36,160 nucleotides of DNA. Source: a virus. A program made the position numbers and the translations under genes. Under the pieces are notes generated by a model. That model worked only from the letters and a program-made list of their open reading frames with translations. It searched no databases and was not told the DNA's origin. The stretch spans positions 1 to 36,160 of the IMG/VR virus record IMGVR_UViG_3300025109_000031; one strand, 5' to 3'. Every line of letters begins with the position of its first letter. Position 1 is the stretch's first letter. Positions 2 through 18,589 of this stretch are shown here, in pieces.

Positions 2-349
2 GGTATAACACTTCAGCTTGGGGATTCTTATAGACATCTTAGTGTACAACAGGAACAGTATGATGCTGCAAAAGGCACTCCTAAAGAGGGTAAGATTGCT
101 CAACCAAAGAATTCTCTACATCCTAAGGGTATAGCTTTTGACTTAGCTCAAACAGATGAGATGAAAAAGCCTGCAGTTCATAAAGCTCTTATTGCTGCTG
201 GTTTTGTGAGATCAAGACCCGATGAATGGTATCATTATTCTATGTCAAATAAAAAAGCATTGGAGTTAGGTAAGATTACTCGGGAACAATTTGAGATGTT
301 TTCAGCTTATGAAGATTCAGCAGCCCAAATAGTATCATCTGGTACATAA
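2..349 (+). CDS. M15-family peptidoglycan peptidase (5' partial; endolysin/VanY-like)
   Basis: This is the C-terminal 115 residues of a zinc peptidase; the gene begins before the window. The frame is open from base 2. It carries the M15 signature S-L-H-P-K-G-I-A-F-D (SxHxxGxAxD, codons around 113-142) and the later E-W-Y-H-Y, equivalent to the EWWHF motif; together these supply the His, Asp and His zinc ligands of the family. M15 enzymes cut peptide cross-links in peptidoglycan (D-Ala-D-Ala carboxypeptidase or L-Ala-D-Glu endopeptidase), so here it is probably a lysin for release or for entry. The stop codon overlaps the start of the giant downstream gene (TAATG), so the two are translationally coupled. 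Subfamily and exact bond are not decidable from this fragment. Confidence 0.85.
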   Translation, partial: GITLQLGDSYRHLSVQQEQYDAAKGTPKEGKIAQPKNSLHPKGIAFDLAQTDEMKKPAVHKALIAAGFVRSRPDEWYHYSMSNKKALELGKITREQFEMFSAYEDSAAQIVSSGT

Positions 350-3300
350 TGCCTTTAGATAGACAAAGTGTAATAGATGATATAAGAGCTACTGATCCCG
401 AGTTTTTTGAAACTTGGGACGACTCTAAAATATTTGGTTTTCTACAATACGCTGAACCAGAATTAAAATTTAAACCCGAGACTGAGGGTGCTGCTATATA
501 TAGACAGTATGGTGCTGTTGAAGTTCCCAACTTTATGGAGAGAGCTGCACATCAATTAGAGACTCAATGGGATGAGATGAATACTGGTCTCTATGGTATG
601 ATGCCATGGACTGATATAGAGGCTGCTGAAAACCTAAGACAATATAATAAAAATTTATATAAGGCAAAAATAGCTGACAATATTGAACTTCAAGCCTTGA
701 CTGCTTGGAAAGAAGACGAACCTGGATGGACTAATTTAGATACTGGGTTGAGGTCTTTATCTGAGGCTATACCATCTTTGGCTTTGGCTATGACTGGTAC
801 TCTTATGGGTGTTGGACTCGCTAAGGTAACTGGTGGGAGTTCTTTAATGTATAGTGTTGCATCTCTTGCTCCAATGTTTGCTATGGAATCTGGGGCACAG
901 TATAATGAGGCTATGGCTACTTTAGTAGATGAATTGGGGATGGACCCCGAAGATGCTAGGGGATATGCACAAATGACTGCTGTTGGTTATGGTGCTGTTG
1001 CTTCTATGCTTGAAAAAATTGGTGCACAGCATTATTTAAGATTAGTTGGAATTGGTAGAAAAGCGTCAACAGATGCTTTAAGAACGTCTATTGCCAAGCG
1101 TTTAGTTATGAGTGGTATGGATAAGGGAACGCTAATAAGAGGCGGGACAAGGATGCTGGCAGGTTTCTCTAAAACAATAGAAGGTACTTTACTTGAGGGT
1201 TCAACTGAGTGGTTACAGGCATATACTCAAAATACAATTAATGAAGGTATGCGATTAGGCTTTGGTGAGGATCAAATGTCTGTTAAGGGGGCTTTGCAGG
1301 AAGCGTTTAAGAAAACTTGGGACAACCCAGCAGTTTGGGAAGAGGGTTTTGCTGGTGCAACAACTGGTGTTCTTGGTTTCCCATTTGGCGCAGCTACATC
1401 AACTCAAGCATCTAAAATTTCTCAAGAGGAGATTGCAGAACTTCAAGATGCTGATGAAACTGACACAAAACAAGTAGCAGAACCTGGGAAATTTGGTGGT
1501 TATTTATCTGCTCTTTTTGACCCAGATTTAATGGATGATACTCTCAGTGATATAAAACAAGGCGATGAAATGGGAGAAAGGATGCAATTTGCTGAAGACA
1601 GAATAGGAAATATAGGTAAGAAAATACTATATGTTCTTGGGAACAACGCAGACTCTGTAAATGATCTATATAATCATCTAAATAAAGATATACTCTTAGC
1701 TGAAGTAAAGAAGGTTTTCATTGAAGAAGCTGGTTTAGATGAAGCCTCTGGGGAAGCTGAATTACGAGCTTTTATTTCTCATTTTGTATCGACTGGAAAA
1801 TTTATTGATTCGGAAACAGTTGCACAAGAGGGGATGCTTAGTGAGATTATAAAAGATCCTACATTATCCATGCCCGAATTTGCAGAGCAAGAACCTTCTG
1901 ATCTCGACTTTTTGGTCGTACCCCCAACGCTAGACACTAAACCAACATTTAAACAACTTGAAAAAAGCATTACTGAGGCTAGAAAGAATGAGCTTATTGA
2001 TGCAGCGGAGGCGGGTAAAAAACCCAAAATGTCTGATGCTGAGAAGGCTTGGTTTGATGTAGTTATGTCCCCAGAGATGGTAGATGCAGTTCTTGCAGAT
2101 TTTCAAGCCACTCCCGAAGGGAAAGCTGGTGGATCAGCACCTGGGGTTATACCGAGTGCTGAAACTGGTGGACCAGCAGTACAAAAAGTTATATCCGCAT
2201 TTGATAAGGGTGTAGCTGCAGAAAATGTTCAAATAACAGAGAAAAATGAGAAGATAATTGCAGAGCATGAAGCTGGTACAGTAATTAATGATCCTCAAGG
2301 TAATTACAAGAAAGGTCAGCGTGTACAATTAAACATTGACCCATCAACAATATCAAATAAAAAAAATCAAAAAGCTTTAGAGGCGATAGGAAAAGATAAG
2401 ACATATGCTGTTGTTGCAGTTTCTGAAACAAGTATAAGACTAATTGAACTTAATTCAGAGGGAGAACTTTCTGTTAACCCAGCTGAACAAAAGGCAAAAG
2501 ATCAAATATGGATACATAAAACACTCTATAAGGGCAAAGAAAGACAGACAGATCATTTAAAAATCGTTGGTATAGGTGGTAAAACATATCAAACACAATA
2601 TGAGAAAAAGTATGACACAACATACGAGGAGACAGATAGAGTAAAGGTTGGAGATAAGGTAGTTGAAACAAAGGCACAGTCTGATGTGGATAAGATGACT
2701 CCTTCTCAGTTACTTGCTAAGGCTAAAGAATTAGGTGTAAAAGACCAGCTTCCTACAACACCAAGTGGAGCAGTAAGTAAATCAGCAGCGAATATTGAAA
2801 AAATCAAAAAAATAATTAAAGCTGCAATGCCTCAACCAGTTCAAGCAGTAAAACCCACAACGCCTGGGAAGACTAAAAGTCTTATCGCAGAAATAGAGGC
2901 AGAGAAGAAAGAAGCTCCAGCTGAAGTAAAAGCAGAGAAGAGAATTACTTCTGTTATGAAAGAATTTTTTAAATCACCAGAAGATATTCAGAAAGCAAGA
3001 ATTGCAAATGTTAGTGATGATGTAGTTGTTGGATATATATCATCTGCACCTGATAACGTTGTTGAGGATATTTTAAAATTGATGCCAGCTGATAGAGCTA
3101 ATAGATTAATGGATACTATAGTTCAGTATAAAAATATTATAGAAAAAGATTTTGCATCTAAATCAGATCGTGAAAAAGCATTTGCAGAAGAAAATATGAT
3201 ATATATGCCTTCCGTTGATGCAAAGATACAATTTTTTAAAGAATTAAATAAATCAATTAAAGCTCCAGCAAAGAAAGATGTACAAAAAACTGGAGAAACA

Positions 3301-6300
3301 GACCAAGTACAAACACCAGATACATTTGATGACGTTACAGGGATTCCTCAACAAGTATCTGACCTTTCTGTTAAAGAATTGAAAAAGATATTAAAGGGAA
3401 AAGACCAAAAAACTGGAGGGACTAAACAAGCTTTAAGAAGGAGACTAGAAGCTTTAATTAAATTAACTGCTTCAGATCAGCATTCTGACAAAGAAAGTGT
3501 TACTGATGCTGAATTAGAAAAAACTGAGAAAGCCATTTTTAATACTTTGGCAATTTTAGTTGGAGGTGACAGGAATAGGGGAGCAAGAGAAAAAGCTGGA
3601 GTTACTGAGACTCGTCTGGAAGAGAATAAGAGATTAAAGGCTGAAGAGAAAGAACTCAGTGATAATCTTATTTTTGACGATGCACTTGAAGAGTCATTAC
3701 TGGATATTGAAGAATCAAATTCACCTCCTATACAGAAAAAGAGAGACAGGGTAGAATTACTAAGGGCAGCTAAGGCTAAACAAGAAACAGGGACTAAAAA
3801 GGCTCAATCCAGGAAAACAATTGAGGGTAAAGGTAGGGTAGCACCCTCTACAAAGAAAAAAACAGCACCTAAAAAGGCGGTTACGGAGAAAAAAGGCTTA
3901 TCTGATAAGCAGAAAACAGAGTTTGTCAAGAAACGTCTTGCTGGTGAAAAAGCCAATGAAGCAGATATGACCAAGGCAGAATTAGCTTATTATAATAGTG
4001 AAGAATTTAGTCAAGATTATGAATCTCAAAAACTTATGGAAGACGCGGGAGATCAAGATTTCAATAGACCCACAGATAACTTTGATTATCAAGATGAAAT
4101 GGATAGTAACGAGAAGTTGGCATCTGAAGATAAAATACTTATGGATAAAATTCTATCAAGGCTACAAAAACATTTTCCTTATGTAGATGTGAAAACTTTT
4201 GAAGGTCTTATAAAGGTATATGGAAGAAATAAAATTGGTTATGCAACGGAGGCTCTTGTAGCATGGTCACTGGATAAGGGAAAACTTGATACACTCCCAC
4301 ATGAATATGCTCATATATATGTTAAACTACTTAGAAATGAAAAGATCATTAAACTTGCTCTTAAGCAATTCAAGACTGAAGAAGCTTTGGTTCAGGCTAT
4401 AGCAGATTACTATATGAAGAGGATTAGAGATAAAAAGTTTCTTAATACAGTTAAAGTCTTTTTGAAACAAATGGTAGCAAGATTAAAAAGGATGTTTAAG
4501 ATTGAGCCTCAAAATCAAGATGAAGTTTTACAATTCATAGCTGAGGAATTTTATCAAGGAAGGTATCTTGGAATAGATGTAACTGTTGGAGACCAGTGGA
4601 TTGGATATCAAGATGAAAATGAGTCAACTGAAGAGAATGACGAAGAAGGGACTACTGAAGATGAATCTGATGCTCCAGGTGCAAAGCAAACAACTATTCC
4701 TAGTGGTATCAAATTAACTCATTTCCACCATGAAGTTCTTGGTATTTATATCAATAACAAATTTGATTATCCTATAATGATGGATTTAGCTGATAAATAT
4801 AAAACATATCAAGAATATGAGGATGCCCTTTTTGAGTGGGCAGCTGAAATGGCTGCTGAAAGGAATTTTATTGGTGATGAGAATGTCAAGTCTCAAGCGG
4901 AACTGACTGACGATCAAAAGAATAAGATGAAAAATGAGTGGAGTAGGATACAATCAAGGATTAAAAGATTTAGTAGGACTAATCCTGCCGCTCAGGGAAG
5001 AGATACAAGAGCCTACCTTGAAATTACTTTAAATTATGATGAAGACACTGCGGAGGGAAACTCAGCTGGTATGCAACCTGCTGGAACATATGATAAGGTA
5101 AATGAAAAGGAATTTCCTGAATATCAAGTTAGAAATTTTATTGAAGATGACTATATAAATGGAACGCATGATTCAAGAGCCATGATACTTCCCTTAAAAC
5201 AGATTACTAAAAGATTAGTAAGAAAGAAAGATAAAAAAGTTTTCCATAAATCATCTGCTCCAGAAATGAGTTTAGGCTTTTTAGGATTTCTACAGAGGAA
5301 GGCTGGTCTTGAATATAAGAGAAAATTTGAGAGGCAAGTATTAGGAATTAAAGCTAGGGCTATGGCAAGGGCTGAAGCAGGCTTAACAGAGAAGGAAAAT
5401 ATTAAAATAATATTAGAAGATTTAGAGAAGATGGATAAGAGAGGTACTCTTCTCAGTATTATAGGTTCTAAGCTTGGTGATAATGCAGCAATTATCTCTA
5501 CAAATGTGCGGAATATGCCTCATACATTGACTCCAGAAGCATTTAATCAGATTATAGAAGATGAACTTAGTTTTAACAATATAAATAAAGACCATGCTAA
5601 AATTCTTAGGAAAGACTCAAATTATGAAACATTAAAGAACAGTAAAAATCGCTTGGTGACTGCTACTAGCTTTAACGAGTATGCAAGAGAGAAAATTGAT
5701 GAATTAGGCTCTATTAATGCATTTTTTGATACTCTTTACGAGGAAATGAATCATAAAGACTTTACAGATATGGTAGAGATGTCACAATCTCTTGCTCAAC
5801 TTAGATGGTGGCAGAATGTGAGGACACCAGATTATTTTATGTATGAGAAGAGTGCTGGTGATTCAATGATTAGGTTAAGTATCAATCTGGCAGAAGGTCC
5901 AAGTCCCACAGAAGCTGGTGATATGGAAGTGATGATTATAGATGAGGATGTTCAGATTGGTGGAAAAGTATGGGAAAGAGATGAAAATGGTGATTGGGTA
6001 TTAGACAGCAATGGCAATCATAGGTTAATAGATGAAGAGATTAATGCAGATTCCCTAACATATGGCGAAGTTGATGGTGCTTCTTATACTGGTACCAGAT
6101 ATTTAAGCAAAGTCGGTGGTTCTCTTGGTTATAATGTATTACAGCAGTTAAAAACTTTTATTAGGCAAAGAGATGTTAATGCAGGGACTGGGGAGGTCGA
6201 GGGCTACATCGGAATGAAACATATGATGTTTGCAGTTTATAAGGGAATGAAATTTTATAAAAATGGAGAACTATTTGCAGAAGTTAGAGAAGATTCAAAT

Positions 6301-9006
6301 AGACTAACATATTTTTATGACGTTAAAAATGAAAAAGAATTTGACATGATAGCATCTCCTAATGAGGCTAAGATGACATTTGGGAAGTATGCAAGTGCCA
6401 AACAGAAGGCTGATGCTTTTGGTGGGCAAGAGACTGATTATGATAATGGTTTCTATAAAACCCACACTATAAAAGCTACATCTATTAAAGTAACACAGGT
6501 TATGGATAAAAGTAAGTGGAGTGCATCATATCCTATCGCTGTGGGTGAGATGTTGTTGTCCTTAGGATACACTTCTGACGAGGTAAAAGCCCTCTTAAAG
6601 ACGATGCGCGGTAGATATGTAGATATTGTGAACCATTACACTGAACAGATGAAAAGCTACTATGAAAACCCCAAGCTGTTAGCAGATTTTATAAGGAAAG
6701 CAGACAAAGCTGGTGAAATACCAGATGATCTACAAAAATGGGTAAAAAGACTAGGAGAAGGTGGTCTGGGAATCTTTCATCCAGCCCTTATTACTCATAT
6801 TCTACCAGTTCTTAATAGTAAGCTTATAAAGGATGGTATTAATAAAGCCAGAGGATATAAAGGAGAGGGTACGGTTTTATATCTCAAACCAGCAAGAAAT
6901 AAGAGTAATTCCAAACATCATCATTTGATGAAAGATAATATTATTCTATCAGCAGATAATAAAATGGCGTTTAAGAAAATTGCAAATTTGATTAAAGAAG
7001 GGATGAATAAGGATGACATAGCAACGTGGGATAGCTTAACAAAACATGAGAAGCTTAAATCTATAAATCAATATCTTGAGACACATGATGTTCATATGTT
7101 AATACATAGAAATCCAATTGCTAAAGTAACTGGTCCAGTAGTGAGGAGAGTACAAGCTCTTGAAGAAGGTCTTGGTCAAACAACAATCATGTCTAAAGAG
7201 GATGTTAAGAATATTTTGGATGGTGATTGGGATGGAGACAAAGGTGCTTTGGAATTTATAGGTAAAACAGAAATAGATGCTATGTTGTCATGGCAAAATA
7301 GTGAAATGTTTAAAAAGGTAGACAATATTGTTTCATTAAAGCCTTTTGGAAAAAGAATTGATGACCCAACTAATACTGAAAACTCAACTGTTTTATCAAG
7401 AGATGATATTGCTACTGAAGTGCATAGAAATAGTAAAAATGATGGTGCTACTGGTGTTATGATGAATGGAAGAACTATTATGGCTCAGTTGTTTAGTAAA
7501 GATTTGAGTATAGAGATTGGTAAGGGTAAGGACAAATATACATTAACAGCAGCAGACCCATTGTCAGAAGTTGTTATGGACTATATTAAAATTGATCCTT
7601 ATCAACTGACTAGTGAAGAATTGGGGATTATATCTGAGAATGGAGATACAATAGTTGTATATAAAGATGGTAAGCCAACAAATAAAACTGTTGATATAAC
7701 AAAAGGGGTAACCAAATATCATATAGAAGAAGTGTTACCTGCCGATGATGAAACATGGCATCTTAAAACAACAAAAGGACATGAAATGTCAGTATTGTTT
7801 CAAATGGCAGTTGATGGAAATAAATTCCCATTCCTTGGGCAAATTGTAGCTGAGGCTAAAATGTCTAATTTCAGATTTATGCTTTCAAGAATTTTTCAAA
7901 ATAATGGTACTGATGTATTTAGTCCAAAAGACTTAGATTTTCTTGCAAAGCTCTATGCAGCTCAAAATCTTAGTAGGCAAAGAGCTGGTAGAACAAGAAG
8001 TGGACTTAGTACAGACTTTGATATCAATCTTAGCATGAGTGAAGGTTTACATAAAATGCATAATACTAGACCAATGAAAGATAATGAAATGCTGGGGGAT
8101 GAAAATGGTATTGTAAGGGGGACAAGAAGCGATAAAAAATATGCAGAAGAATTTGGGAAGGCTATATCTCATGAAATTTCAGAATCAAATTGGCAAACTG
8201 AGTATGGTAGAAAAGGTTATCAAGGACATCATGTAGCTGATGTTACTATCAAAATAAAGAATCATATTACACCAATGGAATCATTGTTATTGATGCTTGG
8301 TCCTAAAATAAAATCAAGTTCTTTCAATAAGATGCTTACTGATGATGTTGCCAAAGCAGGGGCTCATATACTTGCTATGCAAGAGTTGTGGGGTTTGAAC
8401 TCTATTGAAGATTTAATGACAAAAGCTGCTCAAAATGAAGATGGTGCGTTTACTGACGCTTATGAATTCATATATAAAACTAAAATTTCTTGGATGCCAG
8501 GACTTGCTGATAATTTACAAGAGACTGTTAAAGGTATTACAGATGAGGTTAAAGGTACAAAAAAAGATTTAAGTTTTGCAAACATATGGGAATATTTAAT
8601 GGATCATACAAAGGATATGAAGGCAGTACAAGCCGACACAAATAAATCCTTTATTGATTTTACTGATTTGTTTATTGAACAATTTCTTTCTCTTACGCCA
8701 GAGGCTCAAGCTTGGACAACACTTGAATTTTTAGGGAGTAGACAGGGTCATGTTAATATACTTAAACTTTTACCACCAAATTTAATGAGTGATAAGATTA
8801 TGGACATTTATCTACCTATGTTTGAAAGACATTTAAGAGAAATAATTGCACTCCCAAAGAAACAAAGGGCTGGTGCTAGGGATATTAGAAAAGGTGGAAA
8901 AGCTGGAGGCGCACTTATTTATAGAACTGATTTAAAGAAGAGTGTAACTCAAATGAGAAAAGACCATAAGAAACGGAACGATAATATTAAAAAGGGAGAG
9001 TGTTAA
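349..9006 (+). CDS. giant multidomain protein: membrane-like N-terminus, SAP motifs, HExxH zincin, RNA polymerase-like DxDGD core
   Basis: A 2885-aa protein, started at the ATG that overlaps the upstream stop. Seen in order: hydrophobic helices at about residues 142-184; a lysine/glutamate-rich linker; SAP-like DNA-binding motifs at about 782-827 and 1005-1038 (the second with the L..KELK.. pattern and a conserved G); a zinc metalloprotease motif H-E-Y-A-H at 1318-1322; and a C-terminal part with R2254-N-P2256 followed 39 residues later by D2293-W-D-G-D2297. An R-x-P about 35 residues before NADFDGD is the layout of the beta-prime catalytic barrel of multisubunit RNA polymerase, and RNP...DxDGD is that of eukaryotic RNAi polymerases and crAss-like phage polymerases. 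A possible partner barrel has D1909-G1910 and K1957. Phage 'large polyvalent proteins' share this size and mosaic build. The polymerase role is an inference; the motifs are directly visible. Confidence 0.75.
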   Translation: MPLDRQSVIDDIRATDPEFFETWDDSKIFGFLQYAEPELKFKPETEGAAIYRQYGAVEVPNFMERAAHQLETQWDEMNTGLYGMMPWTDIEAAENLRQYNKNLYKAKIADNIELQALTAWKEDEPGWTNLDTGLRSLSEAIPSLALAMTGTLMGVGLAKVTGGSSLMYSVASLAPMFAMESGAQYNEAMATLVDELGMDPEDARGYAQMTAVGYGAVASMLEKIGAQHYLRLVGIGRKASTDALRTSIAKRLVMSGMDKGTLIRGGTRMLAGFSKTIEGTLLEGSTEWLQAYTQNTINEGMRLGFGEDQMSVKGALQEAFKKTWDNPAVWEEGFAGATTGVLGFPFGAATSTQASKISQEEIAELQDADETDTKQVAEPGKFGGYLSALFDPDLMDDTLSDIKQGDEMGERMQFAEDRIGNIGKKILYVLGNNADSVNDLYNHLNKDILLAEVKKVFIEEAGLDEASGEAELRAFISHFVSTGKFIDSETVAQEGMLSEIIKDPTLSMPEFAEQEPSDLDFLVVPPTLDTKPTFKQLEKSITEARKNELIDAAEAGKKPKMSDAEKAWFDVVMSPEMVDAVLADFQATPEGKAGGSAPGVIPSAETGGPAVQKVISAFDKGVAAENVQITEKNEKIIAEHEAGTVINDPQGNYKKGQRVQLNIDPSTISNKKNQKALEAIGKDKTYAVVAVSETSIRLIELNSEGELSVNPAEQKAKDQIWIHKTLYKGKERQTDHLKIVGIGGKTYQTQYEKKYDTTYEETDRVKVGDKVVETKAQSDVDKMTPSQLLAKAKELGVKDQLPTTPSGAVSKSAANIEKIKKIIKAAMPQPVQAVKPTTPGKTKSLIAEIEAEKKEAPAEVKAEKRITSVMKEFFKSPEDIQKARIANVSDDVVVGYISSAPDNVVEDILKLMPADRANRLMDTIVQYKNIIEKDFASKSDREKAFAEENMIYMPSVDAKIQFFKELNKSIKAPAKKDVQKTGETDQVQTPDTFDDVTGIPQQVSDLSVKELKKILKGKDQKTGGTKQALRRRLEALIKLTASDQHSDKESVTDAELEKTEKAIFNTLAILVGGDRNRGAREKAGVTETRLEENKRLKAEEKELSDNLIFDDALEESLLDIEESNSPPIQKKRDRVELLRAAKAKQETGTKKAQSRKTIEGKGRVAPSTKKKTAPKKAVTEKKGLSDKQKTEFVKKRLAGEKANEADMTKAELAYYNSEEFSQDYESQKLMEDAGDQDFNRPTDNFDYQDEMDSNEKLASEDKILMDKILSRLQKHFPYVDVKTFEGLIKVYGRNKIGYATEALVAWSLDKGKLDTLPHEYAHIYVKLLRNEKIIKLALKQFKTEEALVQAIADYYMKRIRDKKFLNTVKVFLKQMVARLKRMFKIEPQNQDEVLQFIAEEFYQGRYLGIDVTVGDQWIGYQDENESTEENDEEGTTEDESDAPGAKQTTIPSGIKLTHFHHEVLGIYINNKFDYPIMMDLADKYKTYQEYEDALFEWAAEMAAERNFIGDENVKSQAELTDDQKNKMKNEWSRIQSRIKRFSRTNPAAQGRDTRAYLEITLNYDEDTAEGNSAGMQPAGTYDKVNEKEFPEYQVRNFIEDDYINGTHDSRAMILPLKQITKRLVRKKDKKVFHKSSAPEMSLGFLGFLQRKAGLEYKRKFERQVLGIKARAMARAEAGLTEKENIKIILEDLEKMDKRGTLLSIIGSKLGDNAAIISTNVRNMPHTLTPEAFNQIIEDELSFNNINKDHAKILRKDSNYETLKNSKNRLVTATSFNEYAREKIDELGSINAFFDTLYEEMNHKDFTDMVEMSQSLAQLRWWQNVRTPDYFMYEKSAGDSMIRLSINLAEGPSPTEAGDMEVMIIDEDVQIGGKVWERDENGDWVLDSNGNHRLIDEEINADSLTYGEVDGASYTGTRYLSKVGGSLGYNVLQQLKTFIRQRDVNAGTGEVEGYIGMKHMMFAVYKGMKFYKNGELFAEVREDSNRLTYFYDVKNEKEFDMIASPNEAKMTFGKYASAKQKADAFGGQETDYDNGFYKTHTIKATSIKVTQVMDKSKWSASYPIAVGEMLLSLGYTSDEVKALLKTMRGRYVDIVNHYTEQMKSYYENPKLLADFIRKADKAGEIPDDLQKWVKRLGEGGLGIFHPALITHILPVLNSKLIKDGINKARGYKGEGTVLYLKPARNKSNSKHHHLMKDNIILSADNKMAFKKIANLIKEGMNKDDIATWDSLTKHEKLKSINQYLETHDVHMLIHRNPIAKVTGPVVRRVQALEEGLGQTTIMSKEDVKNILDGDWDGDKGALEFIGKTEIDAMLSWQNSEMFKKVDNIVSLKPFGKRIDDPTNTENSTVLSRDDIATEVHRNSKNDGATGVMMNGRTIMAQLFSKDLSIEIGKGKDKYTLTAADPLSEVVMDYIKIDPYQLTSEELGIISENGDTIVVYKDGKPTNKTVDITKGVTKYHIEEVLPADDETWHLKTTKGHEMSVLFQMAVDGNKFPFLGQIVAEAKMSNFRFMLSRIFQNNGTDVFSPKDLDFLAKLYAAQNLSRQRAGRTRSGLSTDFDINLSMSEGLHKMHNTRPMKDNEMLGDENGIVRGTRSDKKYAEEFGKAISHEISESNWQTEYGRKGYQGHHVADVTIKIKNHITPMESLLLMLGPKIKSSSFNKMLTDDVAKAGAHILAMQELWGLNSIEDLMTKAAQNEDGAFTDAYEFIYKTKISWMPGLADNLQETVKGITDEVKGTKKDLSFANIWEYLMDHTKDMKAVQADTNKSFIDFTDLFIEQFLSLTPEAQAWTTLEFLGSRQGHVNILKLLPPNLMSDKIMDIYLPMFERHLREIIALPKKQRAGARDIRKGGKAGGALIYRTDLKKSVTQMRKDHKKRNDNIKKGEC

Positions 9007-9009: not shown

Positions 9010-12000
9010 ATGCCTAGTGTATGTTCAGTAATACAAGCAGCCACAGATGATATGGCTCAAACTGAAACCTTTTTTAAGTATCAGGTAATTAATGCCATAA
9101 CTTACCTCATTGGTCGTCCTACGAAAAGTTTGATGAGGAAAGCTCAGGCTGCTTATAAAAAAAATCCATCAACAACTAATAAGAAAAAATATGATTTAGA
9201 GACAGCCAGATATATTGAACATAAAAAATTAAGAGACCAAATGATTGCATACACGATGAAAACTGGTAAGGAGGCTAATTATAATTTGCATTTAGCAAAC
9301 CCTGAAGAAATAACAAATTCATGGAGATCAATCTTTGCAAGGAGACTTAGAGGTGAAATAAATCCAATGACAATTATGCAGGGTTCTAGAAAAATAAAAG
9401 CATTAAGAACTCTTGTTAACAGAGTTGAAAATAAGAGAGAACAGTTAGTTAAAAAGGATAAATTACAAAAAACTGCAATTTTTCTCTCCCCTCCTGAAAT
9501 TATTGTTTCCCATTTTGATAAATTTGGATTCTTAGGTCAGCTTGTTGAGAAAATATTAACAATGGGAGATAGGAACATTCAAGAATCATCTAGATTTTTA
9601 GACCCCATTACTAATGCTAGAAATGATTTAACCAATAACTTAGAGAGTTTAATAAAAGATAGTATATCTGGGTTTAATATCACTGCTTCAAGTATGGGAG
9701 GAATAACTGGTCTTCATAGCAACACATACGGAGCAGTTACAATACATGAAAGAAGAGAAACTGTTGATGAGGGTATTGTATATGTGGTTACTTTAGATGA
9801 TGCGAATGATGGTGTTAGAAAATATTTGCCCGAAGACGATCTTGAAACAAATAAACAAGGTGTTGATGCTAGGGTTGTACAGATGTATAGAGATGAGTTG
9901 ATGGATGAACTTGGTAATGGTCAAACGAGATTAATTGTTCCCCAGTTACTTGAGAATGCTAGTGAGAGTGACATGAGAAAGGTCAGAAGAATACTTGATG
10001 TAGCATACCGAGAAAAAGAAAGAGAGGACGCTGGGCAGAAAGTTCCTGGGATGCATTCAATTAGAGTTGATGTTTATGATGAGGAATTGGGCTATACGAC
10101 TCCGTGGGAATATACTTATATAATGATTAAACAAGGCGAGGGTGAACACGAAATCGATGGTGAGATTAAAGCTGAAACTTATAATGCTTATCTAGTTAAT
10201 AAAAAACAAGAATTGTCTGGGGTAAATAAATTTGGAGACAAAATAAATTTTCTTGGTAAAACAAGACAGTTAACAGAAGAAGAAGAGATAATTGATATAC
10301 AATATAGTTATAACCAAGTAGAATTAGATGATGTTATGAAAAGAGGGTTTTACAGGGCAGAGAGAAATGAGAATTTTGGGAAACATACATATAAAAACAA
10401 AAAATCTATTGTATTAGCAGACGGAACAGCAAAAGATATTGATACAGAAACACCTGTATATCTAGATGAAGAAGTTAAAGGAAGTGCAAAAAAGAATTGG
10501 GTTGATTTTCAATATATGGAAAAACAGCCTCACGAAAAAGCTATGGATATGATTTGGACAGCTCTGGCAAAAATTAGGGACAGTTATGCTGATGCATACA
10601 GGGATTTGCGAATAAAGAATAAAGCTAGTATGGAGAAGAGAGCCAATCTTAACCAAACTATTATTAATTGGAGAATAAAAGGAATGGGGGATTCCCCTGA
10701 TGATGCAGCTATTTGGTTATCAGACCAATTAAAGAAGGTAGGTATTAATGAATATATAAGAGTAAATGATGATGGCAGAGTTGTAACATCTACAACATAT
10801 GCTAAAGATAAAAAAGAAAACTATTTTCCTCAGATGTATCATAGAGAGAATATTTTTGTTGTACAGATACCAGCTGCAATTAATGAATTGAAAGAAAAGA
10901 TTGAAGAATATGAGGATAATAATGGAGTGTCCAAAAAAGATTTAGAAGAAGCGGATGAATATGGAGGCTCCAGATTAGAAAATCTTAATGAAGGACTTGC
11001 ACATTTATCAAAAATGTTAGAAGATTATAATAAAGGGTTAGATGTTGACATGGGTTCTCTGAATGACTTGAATGCATTAAAGAGTATGAAGCATATAACA
11101 TCTTGGACTAATCCTATGATGCGCAGAAAAGATGGAGGCGTACATCAGGATTATTTTGAACAGTCATACAATACTCTTCACAAAAATGAAATTATGATTG
11201 AATTAATGAACGCTATATATAAAATGACAAGAGTTGATAAAAATATTCCACAAGGTTCATTAGATTATATAATTAATAGAGTTAAAATAGGATTTGGTGA
11301 TCCAACATCAAGAGCTATGACAATCACTGGTAAAGAAACCAGCTATGAGAAATCATCTGAAACATTAAATGGTTTGCCTTCATGGGTTCTTGGTGGAGTT
11401 GTTCATGATGCAAGGTCAGCAGAAAGACTAACTAAATGGCTAACTGCTCCTGCATCTATGATGTTTTTAGGAGGGAGTTCTGCTCTTGGTAATTCAGCAC
11501 AAATTGTAAACCAAATTATGAGAGTAGGCTGGAAAATTGCTGGTGAGGCTTATTCAAGATATCAAGGTAATCCAGATGAGTATAAAAAAATTATAAGAAA
11601 CACTGGTATTCTTAATGTTATGACAATGTTTACTGATATTATGTTAAAAGATGGGAGTTCTAAATGGAATGATGCAGGATTAGTAAATGCTGCTGGTGTT
11701 CCAATACCCACTATTAACATGGTAAAATTTGGCAGATTATTATTAGCAGGTAGAGAAAACTTTGTTGAAAATGGTACAGATGAAATTGACAATTTTTTAT
11801 ATCAATTAATAAAAGCTTCTGGAGGTGAAACAAGAGAAGAAATCATAAGATTAAGGACTATTAATGAATTAAGAAAAGGAATAGGTGATACAGAATTAAG
11901 AAAAAAAAGAGGTCAACTGTATGATGTTTTTACTTTGAAAGAAAATGAAAGTAAAGCAGTAGTAGAAAAAGCTTTCAGAGAACTTCTTACAAAGGTTGCT

Positions 12001-12813
12001 GACACTAAACTTAAACAAATGGTTAGCTGGAAACTATCTTGGTGGTTTGATGAAGCTGGTGGACCTGGAAAAGATTTATTTACATTTACAGAGAGTGAGA
12101 ATAGACTAAGGACTCTCACAGCAATTATGGGTCTTATACACGCAGAGAAAACAGGTCTATTAGGAGGATCAGATAATTGGAAAAAAAATTGGCAAAGTCC
12201 ATTAGCCGTAAGAATAGCGAGGAACGCAGTATATTATACACAATTTGGTATGACTCCTCCTTATCTAGGCGAGGGGTTTAATGGATTTGGACGAGCATTA
12301 TGGCAATATAAACAATATCCCACTCTGCAAATGATACATGATGGTCAAGTAATGTTGACTTTTATGGATGGTAACTATGGCATGGGCGATGGATTTGGAA
12401 GAATAATAAAAGCAGTGTCATATTCTACAAGTAATTTTTGGAAAAAAGGAAAAACATATGATCCTGCTGACCCCGATATAGACCATGAAGCAATAATGAT
12501 GGCACGATGGATAGGAACAAGGGGTATAGCATCTGTATTGGCTTCAACTATTGGTTCAATTCCCTTTTTAGGACAAGGGATACGAGCTTTAGCACCTACT
12601 CTGCCAATTTATTCATTATTTAGAGGAGCAGAAAATCCAATGATAGGATTAGCAATGAGAAGTATAGTATGGAGTTCTATGTTTATGATGGGATTAGATG
12701 ACGAGGACGAGAGGAACGATATGACCAATTCAATTGGCTTTTTCTTTCTACCCGTCCTCCTCGGTATGATGATTAGGGGTGTCTACGGAGCTTATGAGAG
12801 TTTTGAGGATTAA
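9010..12813 (+). CDS. large virion/ejection-type protein (polyvalent-protein C-terminal type)
   Basis: A 1267-aa protein starting 3 bases after the previous stop, with a GGGAG ribosome site in the end of the upstream gene. The N-terminal 230 residues are basic and helical. The middle is charged and soluble. The last third has several hydrophobic stretches: near residue 810 (WLTAPASMMFLGG), near 1172 (GIASVLASTIGSIPFLGQG) and 1242-1263 at the C-terminus. A G-R-A-L-W-Q-Y-K-Q-Y-P stretch resembles the end regions of phage large polyvalent proteins (comparison from memory). No catalytic motif was recognised. Position and size suggest an internal virion protein delivered with the DNA and perhaps forming a membrane channel together with the 2885-aa protein. 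It could also hold unrecognised domains of the same transcription machinery. Confidence 0.6.
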   Translation: MPSVCSVIQAATDDMAQTETFFKYQVINAITYLIGRPTKSLMRKAQAAYKKNPSTTNKKKYDLETARYIEHKKLRDQMIAYTMKTGKEANYNLHLANPEEITNSWRSIFARRLRGEINPMTIMQGSRKIKALRTLVNRVENKREQLVKKDKLQKTAIFLSPPEIIVSHFDKFGFLGQLVEKILTMGDRNIQESSRFLDPITNARNDLTNNLESLIKDSISGFNITASSMGGITGLHSNTYGAVTIHERRETVDEGIVYVVTLDDANDGVRKYLPEDDLETNKQGVDARVVQMYRDELMDELGNGQTRLIVPQLLENASESDMRKVRRILDVAYREKEREDAGQKVPGMHSIRVDVYDEELGYTTPWEYTYIMIKQGEGEHEIDGEIKAETYNAYLVNKKQELSGVNKFGDKINFLGKTRQLTEEEEIIDIQYSYNQVELDDVMKRGFYRAERNENFGKHTYKNKKSIVLADGTAKDIDTETPVYLDEEVKGSAKKNWVDFQYMEKQPHEKAMDMIWTALAKIRDSYADAYRDLRIKNKASMEKRANLNQTIINWRIKGMGDSPDDAAIWLSDQLKKVGINEYIRVNDDGRVVTSTTYAKDKKENYFPQMYHRENIFVVQIPAAINELKEKIEEYEDNNGVSKKDLEEADEYGGSRLENLNEGLAHLSKMLEDYNKGLDVDMGSLNDLNALKSMKHITSWTNPMMRRKDGGVHQDYFEQSYNTLHKNEIMIELMNAIYKMTRVDKNIPQGSLDYIINRVKIGFGDPTSRAMTITGKETSYEKSSETLNGLPSWVLGGVVHDARSAERLTKWLTAPASMMFLGGSSALGNSAQIVNQIMRVGWKIAGEAYSRYQGNPDEYKKIIRNTGILNVMTMFTDIMLKDGSSKWNDAGLVNAAGVPIPTINMVKFGRLLLAGRENFVENGTDEIDNFLYQLIKASGGETREEIIRLRTINELRKGIGDTELRKKRGQLYDVFTLKENESKAVVEKAFRELLTKVADTKLKQMVSWKLSWWFDEAGGPGKDLFTFTESENRLRTLTAIMGLIHAEKTGLLGGSDNWKKNWQSPLAVRIARNAVYYTQFGMTPPYLGEGFNGFGRALWQYKQYPTLQMIHDGQVMLTFMDGNYGMGDGFGRIIKAVSYSTSNFWKKGKTYDPADPDIDHEAIMMARWIGTRGIASVLASTIGSIPFLGQGIRALAPTLPIYSLFRGAENPMIGLAMRSIVWSSMFMMGLDDEDERNDMTNSIGFFFLPVLLGMMIRGVYGAYESFED

Positions 12814-12937
12814 GGGTTCTCTTAAGATTCTCTAAGGTCCTTATTAATGAATCTGTAATTAACTTTACTTTTTTTACAGCAGTTAATATTTCTTCAAGAA
12901 ACTCTGTATCATATTTATTATAATTAAGCTGGGGCAT
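12773..12937 (-). CDS. small helical protein (54 aa)
   Basis: An ATG lies inside the last codons of the upstream 76-aa gene (CTATGCC), giving a 54-residue product that starts MPQLNYNKYD and continues with an amphipathic, coiled-coil-like helix (TEFLEEILTAVKKVK, then LIRTLENLKRTL). The overlap suggests translational coupling as the last gene of the minus-strand operon. Its 3' end runs about 41 bases into the end of the convergent 1267-aa gene. The ribosome site is weak (GGAA 8 nt before the ATG). Function unknown; being a chance reading frame is the main alternative. Confidence 0.45.
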   Translation of the reverse strand: MPQLNYNKYDTEFLEEILTAVKKVKLITDSLIRTLENLKRTLNPQNSHKLRRHP

Positions 12938-13154
12938 AGTCAAATTCCAGTCCTATAAGGAATTTAAATAATCGTACTCCTACTCTTACATATCTTTTGT
13001 TTACATATGATAATTCAAAAGAAATTGGAAATGTTCTTATTCTAAGTTCTGTTTGACATTCATGATCAGAAATTACTTTTATCATTGAAATTCCTAAGTA
13101 ATCATCTCCTTTGGCTACTACACTTATTATTTCTGGTGCTTTTATTTTATCCAT
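12924..13154 (-). CDS. hypothetical phage protein (76 aa)
   Basis: The start chosen is the ATG overlapping the resolvase stop (ATGGATAA), because GAGGA lies 6 nt upstream; an ATG four codons earlier is possible but poorly placed. The product is a mixed beta-rich sequence (EIISVVAKGDDYLGISMIKV, then TELRIRTFPISFEL) without a signal peptide or membrane span. No family recognised. It lies between the RuvC-like gene and the terminal 54-aa gene in the same operon, so a role near DNA processing is possible but not shown. Confidence 0.65.
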   Translation of the reverse strand: MDKIKAPEIISVVAKGDDYLGISMIKVISDHECQTELRIRTFPISFELSYVNKRYVRVGVRLFKFLIGLEFDYAPA

Positions 13155-13650
13155 ACAGTTCCTCATAACCGTGCAAAGCTAGTAATATTGCATCTGCTGT
13201 TTTTAATGTAGTTTTTAAACCACTCATATCAGATGCTATTTGTTTTATCATATTCTTTCGTTCCTTTTTGATCTTAGGCAATTTACCTAAGCGTTTTTGC
13301 CATTTCTGGGGAGTTACAAGAACAACTTTTACATTGAAAGAACTTAGTATACCTTGCCAGATTCCAAAATTCATTCCAAATTTAAACGCTGAACTTCTCC
13401 CGTCTGTTGGAAAAGCATGAACTGCTTCTAAATAACAGACACATTTCTTTTTATTTGTAATTTCCTTTATTAGACTAGTCATCTTATCTACATCATCTGG
13501 GCAGTTCTGTGCGAATATTGCTACATTTTCATCTATCCAAGCTATTCCTCCAGATTTCCCTGGATCAATTCCTATTATTATCTCTTCCAAACAGTTTTCC
13601 ATCTTCTTTATCTTTTTTCCACTTTTTTGATAGTGTGTATTTTGTTCCAT
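13147..13650 (-). CDS. RuvC-like Holliday junction resolvase
   Basis: A 167-aa protein of the RNase H fold. Visible catalytic acidic residues are D29 in G-I-D-P-G-K-S-G-G, E75 in Y-L-E-A-V and D153 in K-T-A-D-A-I-L-L-A, in the order and spacing of RuvC-type and poxvirus A22-type resolvases. TPQKWQK (about 113-119) is typical of phage members. It would cut four-way junctions left by recombination or replication so that DNA can be packaged. The start at 13650 has AAGGG 6 nt upstream; an alternative ATG at residue 17 would give a shorter protein beginning just before the catalytic strand. The 5' end overlaps the zinc-ribbon gene by about 85 nt, or 38 nt with the shorter start. Confidence 0.85.
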   Translation of the reverse strand: MEQNTHYQKSGKKIKKMENCLEEIIIGIDPGKSGGIAWIDENVAIFAQNCPDDVDKMTSLIKEITNKKKCVCYLEAVHAFPTDGRSSAFKFGMNFGIWQGILSSFNVKVVLVTPQKWQKRLGKLPKIKKERKNMIKQIASDMSGLKTTLKTADAILLALHGYEELYG

Positions 13651-13804
13651 AATATTCCCTTATTGCACATTTATAACATATATTAAGTTTTGTATCGCTT
13701 AATTGTGAGTGATATCTATAAATAAATTTTGCACTAGAAAGCTTCTTGCACATCTGACAGTATTCTGTCGCTGTCAATTTTAACTTTGTTTCTATTTTTA
13801 TCAT
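13565..13804 (-). CDS. small zinc-ribbon protein (79 aa) overlapping both neighbours
   Basis: This frame carries two CxxC knuckles, C16-Q-M-C19 and C43-Y-K-C46, which would form a zinc ribbon, followed by a very basic tail (SKKWKKDKEDGK). It overlaps the 3' end of the helicase gene by about 70 nt and the resolvase 5' end by about 85 nt. Such deep overlap is unusual even for phage, but the paired cysteines and the absence of stops argue that it is real. An AGAGATGAGAG stretch precedes the start. It may bind nucleic acid or a protein partner of the helicase; the role is unknown. Confidence 0.6.
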   Translation of the reverse strand: MIKIETKLKLTATEYCQMCKKLSSAKFIYRYHSQLSDTKLNICYKCAIREYYGTKYTLSKKWKKDKEDGKLFGRDNNRN

Positions 13805-15134
13805 CTCTCATCTCTTTTCTTGCATCATCAGGTTTTGCATAGAATTTGCATTTGTTCCCACTAAATCCCATTACATATGTTCCTATCTTGCCATATCTTG
13901 CTTTATCACATATAATTTCTATTTCATATCCATCATATTTATCATCATTAAAATTATATCCATAAAATAATAACAATGCTGTTTCTGCTGTTTGTTCTAT
14001 TGTTCCACTTTCTGCAAAATCTGCTAATCTAGGTCTAGGTTCAATTCTCTTTTCGATTTCTCTATTTAATTGAGATACAAGTATAGCAGCACAATCTTCT
14101 TTTTTACATACCCATTTATATTCTGTTAATATATCTTCAATTTCAAATCTTCTATCTTTATGTTGACGATTGTCAACTTTAATTAATTGAATATAATCAT
14201 CAACTACAACATCTGGTTTTTCTCTTTGTATTTCTCGCATAGCATCATCAAGATTTCTAATGTCATCATACATTATAAGATTTTGAAGCTGATCTTTTAA
14301 TTCATCAACAAGAAGTTCTATTATTTGCATCCTGCCTTCATCTATATTGCCTGTTCTTAAATGTCTGTAATTCAAATCTCTGCTTTTCATTATCATAAAC
14401 TTCTTAATTACTTCAACATTGCTCATTTCTCTGTTAAATAGCATTACTCTGTATCCTTGTTTTAACAAACTGGTTACGATATTCAATGTTAAGGTCGTCT
14501 TTCCATGTCCAGGTCGTCCTCCTATGACTGTAAGCTCTTTACGAGTCATTCCTCCTGCTATGTTATCTAGCTGCGGGTATCCAAATTTTATAATATTTTT
14601 ACCAGTTCTTAAAGTTTCTACAGTTTCGTTAATAGTAGCACTAATTTCTTTCTTTCTGCTTGGTGCTATTTCTAAGAGTTCATTAATTAATTTTGAATGA
14701 TGATATAATAACGCTTCAACACTTTCATCCTGTTTTTCAAAACTTGAATTGTATAATTTATATGATGATTTTATAGCTTCTCTTTTAATATATTTTTCCC
14801 AAATTATTTTTGAATATGTTTCTACATTAGCTATTGTTGGTATACTTTCTGGAAGACCAGTAATATAGTATAGTGTTAATCCAGTTGTTTCATCCATTTT
14901 ATTTTTATTTTTTACCTTATCAGCTACAGTAATCATATCAATATCTTCACCATCTCTGTGCATTTTATGTATTATATTCCATAATACCTTATTTTTATCA
15001 TAATAGAAGGCTTCTTCTTCCCTTATCCAAGCATTCGCTTTTTCAAAGACACTTCCGCCTCCTTGAATTATACAACCAAGTACAGCTTCTTCAGAATCTT
15101 CAGAATGTGGATATATTTTTATTCTATCTTCCAT
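13734..15134 (-). CDS. DnaB-type replicative DNA helicase
   Basis: A 466-aa protein with the two-domain layout of DnaB. The N-terminal helical domain has S-E-E-A-V-L-G-C-I-I (about 14-23). The C-terminal RecA-like ATPase has Walker A G-R-P-G-H-G-K-T-T at 206-214, Walker B V-V-V-D-D-Y-I-Q-L at 309-317, and the S-Q-L-N-R-E motif at 354-359. It should form the hexameric 5'-3' helicase at the phage fork. AGGAGAATAA precedes the ATG. It lies 8 nt after the methylase gene in the same operon. No primase or DNA polymerase is seen in this window, so these are either encoded elsewhere in the genome or supplied by the host. Confidence 0.95.
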   Translation of the reverse strand: MEDRIKIYPHSEDSEEAVLGCIIQGGGSVFEKANAWIREEEAFYYDKNKVLWNIIHKMHRDGEDIDMITVADKVKNKNKMDETTGLTLYYITGLPESIPTIANVETYSKIIWEKYIKREAIKSSYKLYNSSFEKQDESVEALLYHHSKLINELLEIAPSRKKEISATINETVETLRTGKNIIKFGYPQLDNIAGGMTRKELTVIGGRPGHGKTTLTLNIVTSLLKQGYRVMLFNREMSNVEVIKKFMIMKSRDLNYRHLRTGNIDEGRMQIIELLVDELKDQLQNLIMYDDIRNLDDAMREIQREKPDVVVDDYIQLIKVDNRQHKDRRFEIEDILTEYKWVCKKEDCAAILVSQLNREIEKRIEPRPRLADFAESGTIEQTAETALLLFYGYNFNDDKYDGYEIEIICDKARYGKIGTYVMGFSGNKCKFYAKPDDARKEMRDDKNRNKVKIDSDRILSDVQEAF

Positions 15135-15142
15135 TTATTCTC

Positions 15143-15973
15143 CTATAAAATGGTTAATTGATAATTGACTGGTTTAAAATTGGTTATAACCAACTCATTT
15201 TTGTAATCCTTACCATGCAACTGTCCGCTATATTTTACTGGTATCTCCGTTATTATATATTTATCATATAGTTCATGTACTAATCTGTGGTCATCATACG
15301 AAATCATGAATTTTCCATTCTCATCATTGATAGTATCAGCCATTACAGATAAATCTAAATGATCTTTCTCAGTTAATGAATGTACATAGTAATCACCTCT
15401 TTCACCAGCTATAACATATGGGGGGTCAAAATACCAAAAATCATCATCTCTTACTGGGTATTTTTTGAGTAAATCCCTAAAATCTACATTCTCTATCATG
15501 GTATCTTGTAATTTTTGCTTACTTGCTGATAAACAATTCCACATTTTCTCGTTCCACTCTGATTCTTTAGCTATAGGGTTATGGAAATTTACATTAAAGG
15601 CATTCTTTATAATATAGAAGTATTTTGCTGCTCTTTTTGGATCAGGCATATCGTAATAGTTAATCTCTTTCTTCAAGTCTTCTTTAAATGAATTATATAA
15701 TAATCTACTTTTTAATAAAGATTCACAATGTTTCATGAATATTTCATAATATTCCATTACTGTCAAATATAAATTTATTAAATCATTATGTTTGTCATTC
15801 AATACATTAAGTTTAGCTTTCTTCTTTCTGAAAAACATACTCCCACCACCTAAAAATACTTCTATATATCTAAAATGGGGAGGTATCATTGGTATTAATT
15901 TTCTACTTAACTCAAATTTTCCACCCATATATGGAATTAGCACAGGACATTCAAACCATCTAGGATCAGGCAT
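15143..15973 (-). CDS. D12-class (Dam-like) N6-adenine DNA methyltransferase
   Basis: A 276-aa protein, close to the length of E. coli Dam. Visible motifs are P-Y-M-G-G-K at 14-19, the SAM-binding F-L-G-G-G-S at 40-45, the V-L-N-D-K-H-N-D-L-I-N-L-Y stretch, and the catalytic D-P-P-Y at 183-186. It methylates adenine in a short site (GATC in the best-known members; specificity here not determined), probably to protect phage DNA or mark replication. Its start has CTGGAGATTATA just upstream and lies inside the end of a 13-codon reading frame with a stronger ribosome site, so its translation may be coupled to that leader. Confidence 0.92.
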   Translation of the reverse strand: MPDPRWFECPVLIPYMGGKFELSRKLIPMIPPHFRYIEVFLGGGSMFFRKKKAKLNVLNDKHNDLINLYLTVMEYYEIFMKHCESLLKSRLLYNSFKEDLKKEINYYDMPDPKRAAKYFYIIKNAFNVNFHNPIAKESEWNEKMWNCLSASKQKLQDTMIENVDFRDLLKKYPVRDDDFWYFDPPYVIAGERGDYYVHSLTEKDHLDLSVMADTINDENGKFMISYDDHRLVHELYDKYIITEIPVKYSGQLHGKDYKNELVITNFKPVNYQLTIL

Positions 15974-16007
15974 TATAATCTCCAGTAATATCCATTGAAT
16001 ATTTCAT
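15966..16007 (-). CDS. 13-residue leader peptide upstream of the methylase
   Basis: A 14-codon frame (product MKYSMDITGDYNA) is preceded by the near-perfect site AAGGAGGAAAATA. It ends at a TGA 6-8 nt inside the methylase gene, so the methylase ATG lies within it. This geometry is that of a translational-coupling leader: ribosomes loading on the strong upstream site would terminate next to the methylase start. Too short to support as a functional protein. Confidence 0.4.
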   Translation of the reverse strand: MKYSMDITGDYNA

Positions 16008-16025
16008 TATTTTCCTCCTTAAAAG

Positions 16026-16141
16026 TGGGTGAGCAACTTTGCTTTGCATTGTAGGTGAGGGTTGGAGATAAAGGGCTGACCTTTATATGCGAAACCACAA
16101 GTACCAATGTCTGCTAAACTCCAAGTAAAATTACTCACCCA
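16026..16141. ncRNA. structured intergenic element with three nested helices
   Basis: This element occupies most of the gap between the DUF932 gene and the methylase. It is closed by an 8-bp inverted repeat, TGGGTGAG (16026-16033) with CTCACCCA (16134-16141). Inside are TTGGAG (16062-16067) with CTCCAA (16119-16124) and a hairpin ATAAAGG (16068-16074) with CCTTTAT (16080-16086). The helices nest without conflict and leave conserved-looking single strands. It would be part of the mRNA leader just upstream of the methylase's strong ribosome site, so it may be a cis-regulatory RNA or a processing site. No known riboswitch class was recognised. Confidence 0.5.
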
Positions 16142-16146
16142 GGTTA

Positions 16147-16917
16147 TTATGCTTGAGCAGCTTTATCTGCCCATTTTTTGATATTAGGAAATATCTTGGT
16201 TTCTAAATTGTGTGTTGACTGGTAATGTCTTTTCATATGATGAGTAGCTAAGAAAGTAGCTGCATTTAATAATCCCCAATAATCTGATGGTCTATTAGCT
16301 ATTAAATATTGAACTAAGAATTCACTCATTTGACTTGGAAATAATTCTACCAATCTCACAATATCTCTGTCATCTAATACAGTATTTACTAAAAATTCAA
16401 ATTCACTTCCAACTTCTATACTATGATCTATTGTTTTTTCTATAGCTTCATCCATATGATTCAGATTTATATTATTTATATTGTGTTTATAGTTTTTATG
16501 TCCAAGTGTTACACCTATTATCATACCATTACTGCACACTAATCTAAAAGCTCCAGCAAGTATATGAACTTGTAAGCTGCCATCATAACTATTCTTTATT
16601 ATAATCTCTGGATTCATTATATCATCTTCAGCAATTTTTATTTTAATACCTGGGATTTTCCATTTATATACAGTTTTCTGACCATCTCCTAATGATATAG
16701 CTTCTGTGAGTACAGCATTATGTTTTTCTAATATTGGTGTAGCGACATCTGTTAGCTCTTTATTTGTAACCATTCTATATTCATCTGTCATACAACTAAG
16801 TACTTGTTCTGTGTCTTCTCTTACTATGAATTTATGACCAGTATTTTTATTCCATATATTATCATTTGTGAAAACTGCTGGTATCTCTTTTACTGGAAAT
16901 AGTGTACTTGATAACAT
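16147..16917 (-). CDS. DUF932 / phage-plasmid-like protein
   Basis: A 256-aa protein that matches the DUF932 pattern in my reading: an early W-N-K-N-T-G-H-K-F-I-V-R, then E-Q-V-L-S-C-M-T-D-E-Y-R-M-V-T-N-K-E-L, and a central L-A-G-A-F-R-L-V-C-S-N-G-M-I-I-G-V-T-L-G-H-K (about 120-141). The N-G-M and H-K stretches are characteristic of the family, which is common in phages and plasmids and has no established biochemical function. GAGGAAGATTA precedes the ATG, which overlaps the upstream stop (TAATG), so it is coupled to the zinc-finger gene before it. A role in replication or recombination is often proposed from context only. Confidence 0.8.
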   Translation of the reverse strand: MLSSTLFPVKEIPAVFTNDNIWNKNTGHKFIVREDTEQVLSCMTDEYRMVTNKELTDVATPILEKHNAVLTEAISLGDGQKTVYKWKIPGIKIKIAEDDIMNPEIIIKNSYDGSLQVHILAGAFRLVCSNGMIIGVTLGHKNYKHNINNINLNHMDEAIEKTIDHSIEVGSEFEFLVNTVLDDRDIVRLVELFPSQMSEFLVQYLIANRPSDYWGLLNAATFLATHHMKRHYQSTHNLETKIFPNIKKWADKAAQA

Positions 16918-17300: not shown

Positions 17301-17410
17301 AGAGTATCATAGTATGTTTTATTTCTTTCATTACTAATTCTTAATTCTTTAGCTATTTCTTCTAAGCATACAACTATTTTTGGTACATATTTTACAATTA
17401 TTTGTGCCAT
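17297..17410 (-). CDS. very small protein (37 aa)
   Basis: The frame begins MAQIIVKYVPKIVVCLEEIA and ends 4 bases into the next gene (ATGA overlap). AGGA lies 6 nt before the ATG, in the 19-nt gap after the preceding gene's stop. Coupled overlap, a ribosome site and an amphipathic helical product support a real small gene. Function unknown. Confidence 0.5.
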   Translation of the reverse strand: MAQIIVKYVPKIVVCLEEIAKELRISNERNKTYYDTL

Positions 17411-17429
17411 TTGTAATCCTATTTGAGTT

Positions 17430-17837: not shown

Positions 17838-17856
17838 AAGTGCCTCCTTTTGGGTT

Positions 17857-18580: not shown

Positions 18581-18589
18581 AATTTCCTC

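Follow-up and report, generated by a model that had tools for sequence, protein, structure and literature searches.

A giant phage protein with a predicted single-chain two-barrel RNA polymerase core and an N4-like N-terminal motif

The window, that is, the whole stretch of DNA analysed here, is the 36,160-base IMG/VR viral contig IMGVR_UViG_3300025109_000031. No terminal repeats were found in the window, and it is therefore a fragment. It belongs to a small short-tailed phage type that is seen only in metagenomes, with a genome of about 55-60 kb as judged from two near-complete relatives (G002, 54 kb, and G006, 58 kb), and comparison with the relatives suggests that about 20 kb is missing between the head gene and the giant gene of the window. 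The genes of the window are arranged as follows.

2-349: partial gene just 5′ of the giant gene, with a weak match to VanY D-Ala-D-Ala carboxypeptidase (E 0.009)
349-9006, + strand: giant protein P0001, 2885 aa, an intact open reading frame with ATG start
9010-12813, + strand: second large protein, 1267 aa, directly 3′ of the giant
12924-26927, − strand: early/replication operon (RuvC-like, DnaB-like helicase, DNA adenine methylase-like, SSB-like and recombinase-like genes, named by inspection of the sequence only), convergent with the giant genes
25696-25769, − strand: tRNA-Met (CAT) gene, in the divergent region
27416-35808, + strand: part of the late operon (terminase small subunit, phosphoesterase-like protein, TerL, P22-like portal, 278-aa protein, major head protein, 156-aa protein)
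28056-29093: the phosphoesterase-like gene between the terminase subunits, with an N-terminal helix-turn-helix (PHROG 7339, E 3.8e-35)

P0001 consists, in order, of an N-terminal ejection-like module, a low-complexity middle, a zincin-like motif, a predicted two-barrel RNA polymerase core and a C-terminal part. The features on which the analysis turns, all on the + strand, are listed below.

814-966: residues 156-206, motif in common with the N-terminal domain of the N4 virion RNA polymerase (gp50 268-341), found by hhalign
3355-3459: residues 1003-1037, SAP-like stretch (Pfam, 19.2 bits against a cut-off of 23.9)
4300-4314: residues 1318-1322, HEYAH, the HExxH signature of zincin metallopeptidases
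5824-6546: residues 1826-2066, predicted beta-side double-psi barrel region, DPBB-A (own model, VIA-align)
6073-6078: D1909-G1910, invariant in 16/16 members
6151-6153: K1935, candidate active-site lysine, invariant in 16/16
6217-6219: K1957, candidate active-site lysine, invariant in 16/16
6844-7320: residues 2166-2324, predicted beta-prime-side double-psi barrel region, DPBB-B (VIA-align)
7108-7116: residues 2254-2256, R-N-P, with R and P in 16/16
7225-7239: residues 2293-2297, D-W-D-G-D, predicted metal-binding triad, with D, D, G and D in 16/16
7801-7824: residues 2485-2492, Q-M-A-V-D-G-N-K, a third motif resembling the crAss 'NAxVDxAKD'

The preliminary description of this DNA had singled out R-N-P and, 39 residues further on, D-W-D-G-D as the mark of an RNA polymerase, and the positions of both were confirmed. 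The D-W-D-G-D of P0001 is the only DxDGD in all six frames of the window. In 20,000 shuffles of the P0001 sequence DxDGD appeared in 7.3%, and RxP followed after 30-45 residues by DxDGD in 0.17%. The motif pair is thus rare yet possible by chance in one sequence, so that it is the conservation that decides.

A related-locus search with P0001 as the single query gave no match. Homologous giants were recovered from IMG/VR by a back-translated DGDWDGDK pattern first and by protein alignments next; since such motif-based recovery risks circularity, the downstream 1267-aa gene was also used as a bait that is independent of the motif, which added five giants (L032-L036). Among the resulting 16 homologous giants, with 19-42% identity in the core, the invariant residues are D1909, G1910, G1927, K1935, K1957, K2008, G2012, R2168, N2240, L2243, R2254, P2256, D2293, D2295, G2296, D2297, G2369 and K2384. 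The three aspartates whose conservation had been put forward as a check are therefore kept in all 16, with the second residue of DxDGD varying among W, N, F and Y. The five giants recovered independently of the motif all retain R-x-P and DxDGD, the latter as DADWDGD, QGDNDGD, QGDFDGD (twice) and RGDYDGD. Moreover, the third block, QMAVDxxK (NAATDNAK in L036), follows DxDGD at a distance of 150-325 residues, in the same order as NAxVDxAKD in the crAss-like polymerase. With this conservation and the fold described below, a chance origin of the R-N-P and D-W-D-G-D pair is ruled out.

An AlphaFold2 model of residues 1455-2640, built on the alignment of the 16 sequences, has a mean pLDDT of 81.9 and a pTM of 0.83. 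When the whole core is compared with the PDB by Foldseek, rank 1 is 6vr4_A (E 3.6e-9, TM 0.37 on the query), followed, among the matches listed, by RNA polymerase large subunits only (cellular beta-prime/Rpb1 chains). The entry 6vr4 is the virion RNA polymerase of a crAss-like phage, phi14:2 gp66 (Drobysheva et al. 2021). The RNA polymerase-like character ascribed to the core is thus borne out by its best PDB match, and the comparison with the predicted viral proteins of BFVD gives unnamed proteins and many crAss-like phage giants. The beta-prime-side barrel, DPBB-B, aligns by VIA-align with AR9 nvRNAP and with bacterial beta-prime chains at Z 12.3-13.9. The VIA list for the whole core was concerned mostly with one barrel, and a separate model was therefore made of residues 1826-2066, with a pLDDT of 81.4. 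This model of DPBB-A aligns with 6vr4 (882-1240) at Z 8.9, with ZmRDR2 at 8.8, with QDE-1 (657-923) at 7.7-7.9 and with bacterial beta chains at 4-5, as compared with Z of at most 4.7 for non-polymerase chains. Foldseek found no significant match for the isolated DPBB-A, and the first barrel is therefore less strongly supported than the second. Structure prediction thus returns both of the barrels that had been proposed, and since D1909, G1910 and K1957 are conserved in 16/16 relatives, the candidate second barrel drawn around them is considered real. The two invariant lysines, K1935 and K1957, are candidates for the active-site basic residues of the beta-type barrel. Taking the motifs and the models together, we regard the core of P0001 as a predicted single-chain two-barrel RNA polymerase module.

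At the level of sequence the link to known RNA polymerases is much thinner. The core gave no significant sequence-profile match to crAss RNA polymerases, to gp96 of the Thermus phage P23-45, to Pfam or to PDB sequences. In the hhalign comparison of residues 2236-2560 with the crAss profile, the RxP-DxD block lies in register (score 22.2 versus 19.8 for the best of 60 column shuffles), and the E values against crAss RNA polymerase profiles range from 0.12 to 0.72, short of significance, with 0.12 for the in-register alignment. Apart from PHROG 2987 (RNA polymerase beta subunit), which matches two core members with a best E of 0.0012 and in the full-length giant L033 falls on RxP..DxDGD (E 0.05), no RNA polymerase was matched when P0001 or the core profile was searched against Pfam, PHROGs and PDB sequences. 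Two-barrel enzymes are described as having little similarity beyond the triad (PMC10770324). The link between this core and crAss RNA polymerase thus rests on the predicted fold and the motifs, and because the sequence link is weak the core is placed outside crAss RNA polymerase: in our modelling it constitutes a new family within the two-barrel superfamily, unrecognised by Pfam and PDB sequence searches and nearest to the crAss enzymes in fold. A scan of bacterial and archaeal genomes gave no relative of the giant and therefore no link to a host. In a tblastn search of 50,697 phages P0001 gave only a 95-residue match, in the zincin region, and the core gave nothing of weight.

In the N-terminal part, residues 156-206 align by hhalign with five N4-like sequences at E 1.1e-4 (score 44.8, the highest of 60 column shuffles being 21.0) and with N4 gp50 alone at E 8.6e-4 (40.5, as against 26.0 for the best of 80 shuffles), the match being partial and covering about 50 columns. 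The N-terminal region of P0001 does not match the phi14:2 giants or P23-45 gp96, and its zincin and C-terminal parts do not match N4 gp50. From the alignments, residues 156-206 may be either a module specific to N4-like phages or a motif found widely among phage proteins that are ejected. The N-terminus had also been called membrane-like, which is weakly supported: no run of residues passes the transmembrane threshold, the maximum hydropathy being 1.57 at about residue 140. As for the SAP motifs ascribed to the protein, there is one stretch rather than several, and it scores below the Pfam cut-off. The HExxH is kept in 11 of the 16 members, four others apparently being cut off by contig ends; it is absent in L036 and is therefore not obligatory.

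No further effector domain was matched in P0001 beyond the zincin motif and the sub-threshold SAP-like stretch. In relatives (e.g., L015, L007 and L017) the variable middle and N-terminal parts contain PIF1/UvrD-like helicase, ART-PolyVal and 2OG-Fe(II) oxygenase domains, and accessory domains of the cpYpsA (SLOG-type), Rho_N and DUF7831 families are also present. It is noted that two similar giants, L034 (1-4062) and L035 (1-3684), have different inserts near the C-terminus, matching PHROG 788 at 986-1119 (E 1e-3) and PHROG 2072 at 978-1096 (E 2.8e-8), respectively, which looks like the exchange of cassettes at one place.

Most genes of the window are common to both near-complete relatives. 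In these, terminase, portal, head, tail and fibre genes, small proteins, the giant and the gene of about 1270 aa, in that order, form a single late operon, which is convergent with the replication operon and at the end of which the giant sits. The location in the virion-side operon that had been assumed for the giant is thus confirmed in these two genomes. In G006 the two genes immediately before the giant encode a 189-aa protein, hydrophobic at its N-terminus, and a 588-aa protein, an arrangement that reproduces the order and approximate sizes of N4 gp52-gp51-gp50; the small upstream proteins have no sequence match to N4 gp51 or gp52. A relationship to N4 gp68 is seen for TerL (phmmer, E 1.9e-14), and by our reading of the host list most of the named tblastn relatives are from host genera with known N4-like phages; the portal and head protein are not close to those of N4. 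In other relatives a gene of 263-318 aa is inserted just 5′ of the giant. Every relative whose contig extends far enough has a counterpart of the 1267-aa gene directly 3′ of the giant (nine relatives, at 27-46% identity). Its product gave no match of weight in Pfam, PHROGs or the PDB and no match to N4 gp50, and its family gave no significant match to phi14:2 gp076 (E 0.34); it is probably a partner in ejection or transcription.

It had further been argued that the lack of a clear bacterial-type early promoter fits an injected polymerase. A scan for the sigma-70 consensus gave 95 sites versus 79.7 ± 9.4 expected, close to what chance would give in DNA so rich in AT, and a k-mer search for a repeated early-promoter motif found none within genomes, so that this argument is not usable. 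Note also that the divergent early regions of the window (23602-27415, − strand) and of G002 (26463-30762) share the exact 14-16-mers TGAGAAAACTAGCAAA, TTTCAAATAACATGGG and TACCCTTAAAATGG, with zero common 14-mers in shuffled controls of the two regions; from sequence, these are candidate conserved control sites or promoters.

The best-known phages that inject their own transcription machine are quite different viruses. The crAss-like phi14:2 gp66 is the top match in fold, for the core by Foldseek and for the beta-side barrel by VIA-align, and it is likewise a single chain with the beta-side barrel ahead of the beta-prime-side barrel and with the motif order RxP ... DxDxD ... (N/Q)AxVDxxK. In phi14:2, too, a giant structural gene is followed by another giant gene, the RNA polymerase giant and neighbouring giants being annotated as structural by mass spectrometry. 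By contrast, the crAss members compared have D[FY]D[IV]D where the P0001 family has DxDGD, their sequence profiles do not significantly match the P0001 core, Crassvirales genomes are about 100 kb as compared with about 55-60 kb and different head genes in the P0001-type phages, and it is in P0001 that the zincin and the N4-like N-terminus stand on the polymerase's own chain. Gp96 of P23-45, another giant virion protein, likewise combines a two-barrel RNA polymerase with a metallopeptidase domain (PMC10770324), and its RNP...DFDGD block has a spacing of 38 residues versus 39 in P0001, while the polymerase there is N-terminal in a 5002-aa tape measure protein of a long-tailed phage and shows no significant sequence match.

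In N4 the ejection cassette consists of gp52 (150 aa), gp51 (644 aa) and gp50 (3500 aa) (PMC12633501). As in P0001-type phages, the giant of N4 and the Schitoviridae ends the late operon; it is preceded by ejection proteins of about 150 and about 644 aa, comparable in order and size with the two gene products of G006, and it shares the HExxH zincin motif and the N-terminal motif, with a related TerL. However, the RNA polymerase module of gp50 has the T7-type palm fold, which has no relation to double-psi barrels, and gp50 has no DxDGD; conversely, Pfam and PHROGs scans of P0001 gave no match to T7-type RNA polymerase families, its module being of the predicted double-psi barrel kind. The eukaryotic RNAi polymerases QDE-1 and RDR2 resemble P0001 in DPBB-A (Z 7.7-8.8) and in three catalytic aspartates at alternate positions, and QDE-1 has two lysines, K743 and K767 (PMC1750930), spaced similarly to the invariant K1935 and K1957, their equivalence being drawn from the spacing alone; unlike P0001, they are cellular RNA-templated enzymes without ejection or zincin parts. 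Finally, P0001 resembles the polyvalent proteins (Iyer et al. 2017, PMC5512222) as a giant phage protein with a zincin motif, to which its relatives add ART-PolyVal, PIF1-like helicase, 2OG-Fe(II) oxygenase, cpYpsA and Rho_N domains, in the pattern of such proteins; within the portion of the survey drawn on here the RNA polymerase modules are of the N4 (T7-like) type only, and a two-barrel RNA polymerase goes unmentioned.

Based on these comparisons, we propose, with a probability of about 0.8, that P0001 is packaged and ejected as a polymerase for early genes, combining an N4-like ejection protein with a crAss-type polymerase. Because the giant is placed among ejection-protein genes, the phage probably delivers its DNA into the cell together with a transcription machine of its own, and injection of P0001 itself is plausible; packaging, ejection, a DNA template, the early-gene role and proteolytic processing are what we infer for it. 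In the proposed pathway, the single-chain two-barrel polymerase, which follows an N4-type ejection module and a zincin-like domain on the same chain, would be packaged in the phage head and ejected through the tail together with, in relatives, the small hydrophobic protein and the protein of about 590 aa, which would line the channel. It would possibly be cut by its own zincin, and would refold in the cell and transcribe the early genes of the phage until host or later polymerases assume this task. The site of catalysis would be the interface of DPBB-A (K1935, K1957) and DPBB-B, where D2293, D2295 and D2297 would hold Mg2+.

The position at the end of the late operon is only suggestive of packaging, and non-virion two-barrel RNA polymerases are known in other phages (PMC10770324), so that P0001 could be a genuine two-barrel RNA polymerase, produced late, that works within the cell unpackaged, its place in the operon being incidental. 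We consider this unlikely: the motif resembling the N4 virion RNA polymerase, the N4-like order of the ejection cassette in G006, and the fused zincin together with the polyvalent effector domains in relatives, all of them typical of injected proteins (PMC5512222), speak against it. Much less probable still is that the core carries out another reaction, as a PolD-like DNA polymerase, a primase or an RNA-dependent RNA polymerase. The two-barrel active site is indeed common to PolD and QDE-1 (PMC7281927), and inspection of the early genes of the window revealed none for a DNA polymerase; yet the best fold matches are DNA-dependent RNA polymerases, above all 6vr4, PolD is absent among the matches listed, and a late operon and an ejection module are ill-suited to a replicase.

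It would be more surprising again if the polymerase fold were degenerate and kept, without catalysis, as a structural or ejection scaffold. The very fast divergence (19-42% identity) would agree with this, as would the fact that giant ejected proteins often retain domains of unclear use. But the catalytic residues are all invariant amid diverging surroundings, in which even the second residue of DxDGD varies freely, and this indicates selection on catalysis.

Single-chain two-barrel RNA polymerases bear on the origins of cellular transcription and of the eukaryotic RNA interference polymerases, and to our knowledge only a few have been characterised. The P0001 family would add a divergent one, in a compact phage type of about 57 kb that sequence libraries have missed. 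The wider reading, to which we give even odds, is that the N4-like ejected giant is a chassis that has received RNA polymerase folds of two kinds with no relation to each other, a T7-type palm in the schitoviruses and, here, the two-barrel fold of cells, and that the P0001-type phages are a third lineage in which a virion RNA polymerase of the single-chain two-barrel kind occurs, next to P23-45 and the crAss-like phages, and, moreover, one with interchangeable effector domains. If the N4-like N-terminus is true, phages would have swapped the whole catalytic fold of an injected polymerase and kept its delivery part, and the function of the ejection module and its possible cargo would become directly testable.

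Some further observations on the relatives are noted. A 111-kb IMG/VR contig (G003:C1) has TerL twice, at 11710-13275 and 71905-73476, 60.2 kb apart, and looks like a tandem copy of a genome of about 60 kb, one TerL copy having an in-frame TAA. In another contig (G013:C1, 26725-28290) the TerL frame is broken by one TGA, which may be an intron, recoding or an assembly error. Finally, in L036 the giant is split into an 852-aa N-terminal-like protein (1885-4443) and a separate 1395-aa polymerase-core protein (4437-8624), the latter being a convenient target for biochemistry.
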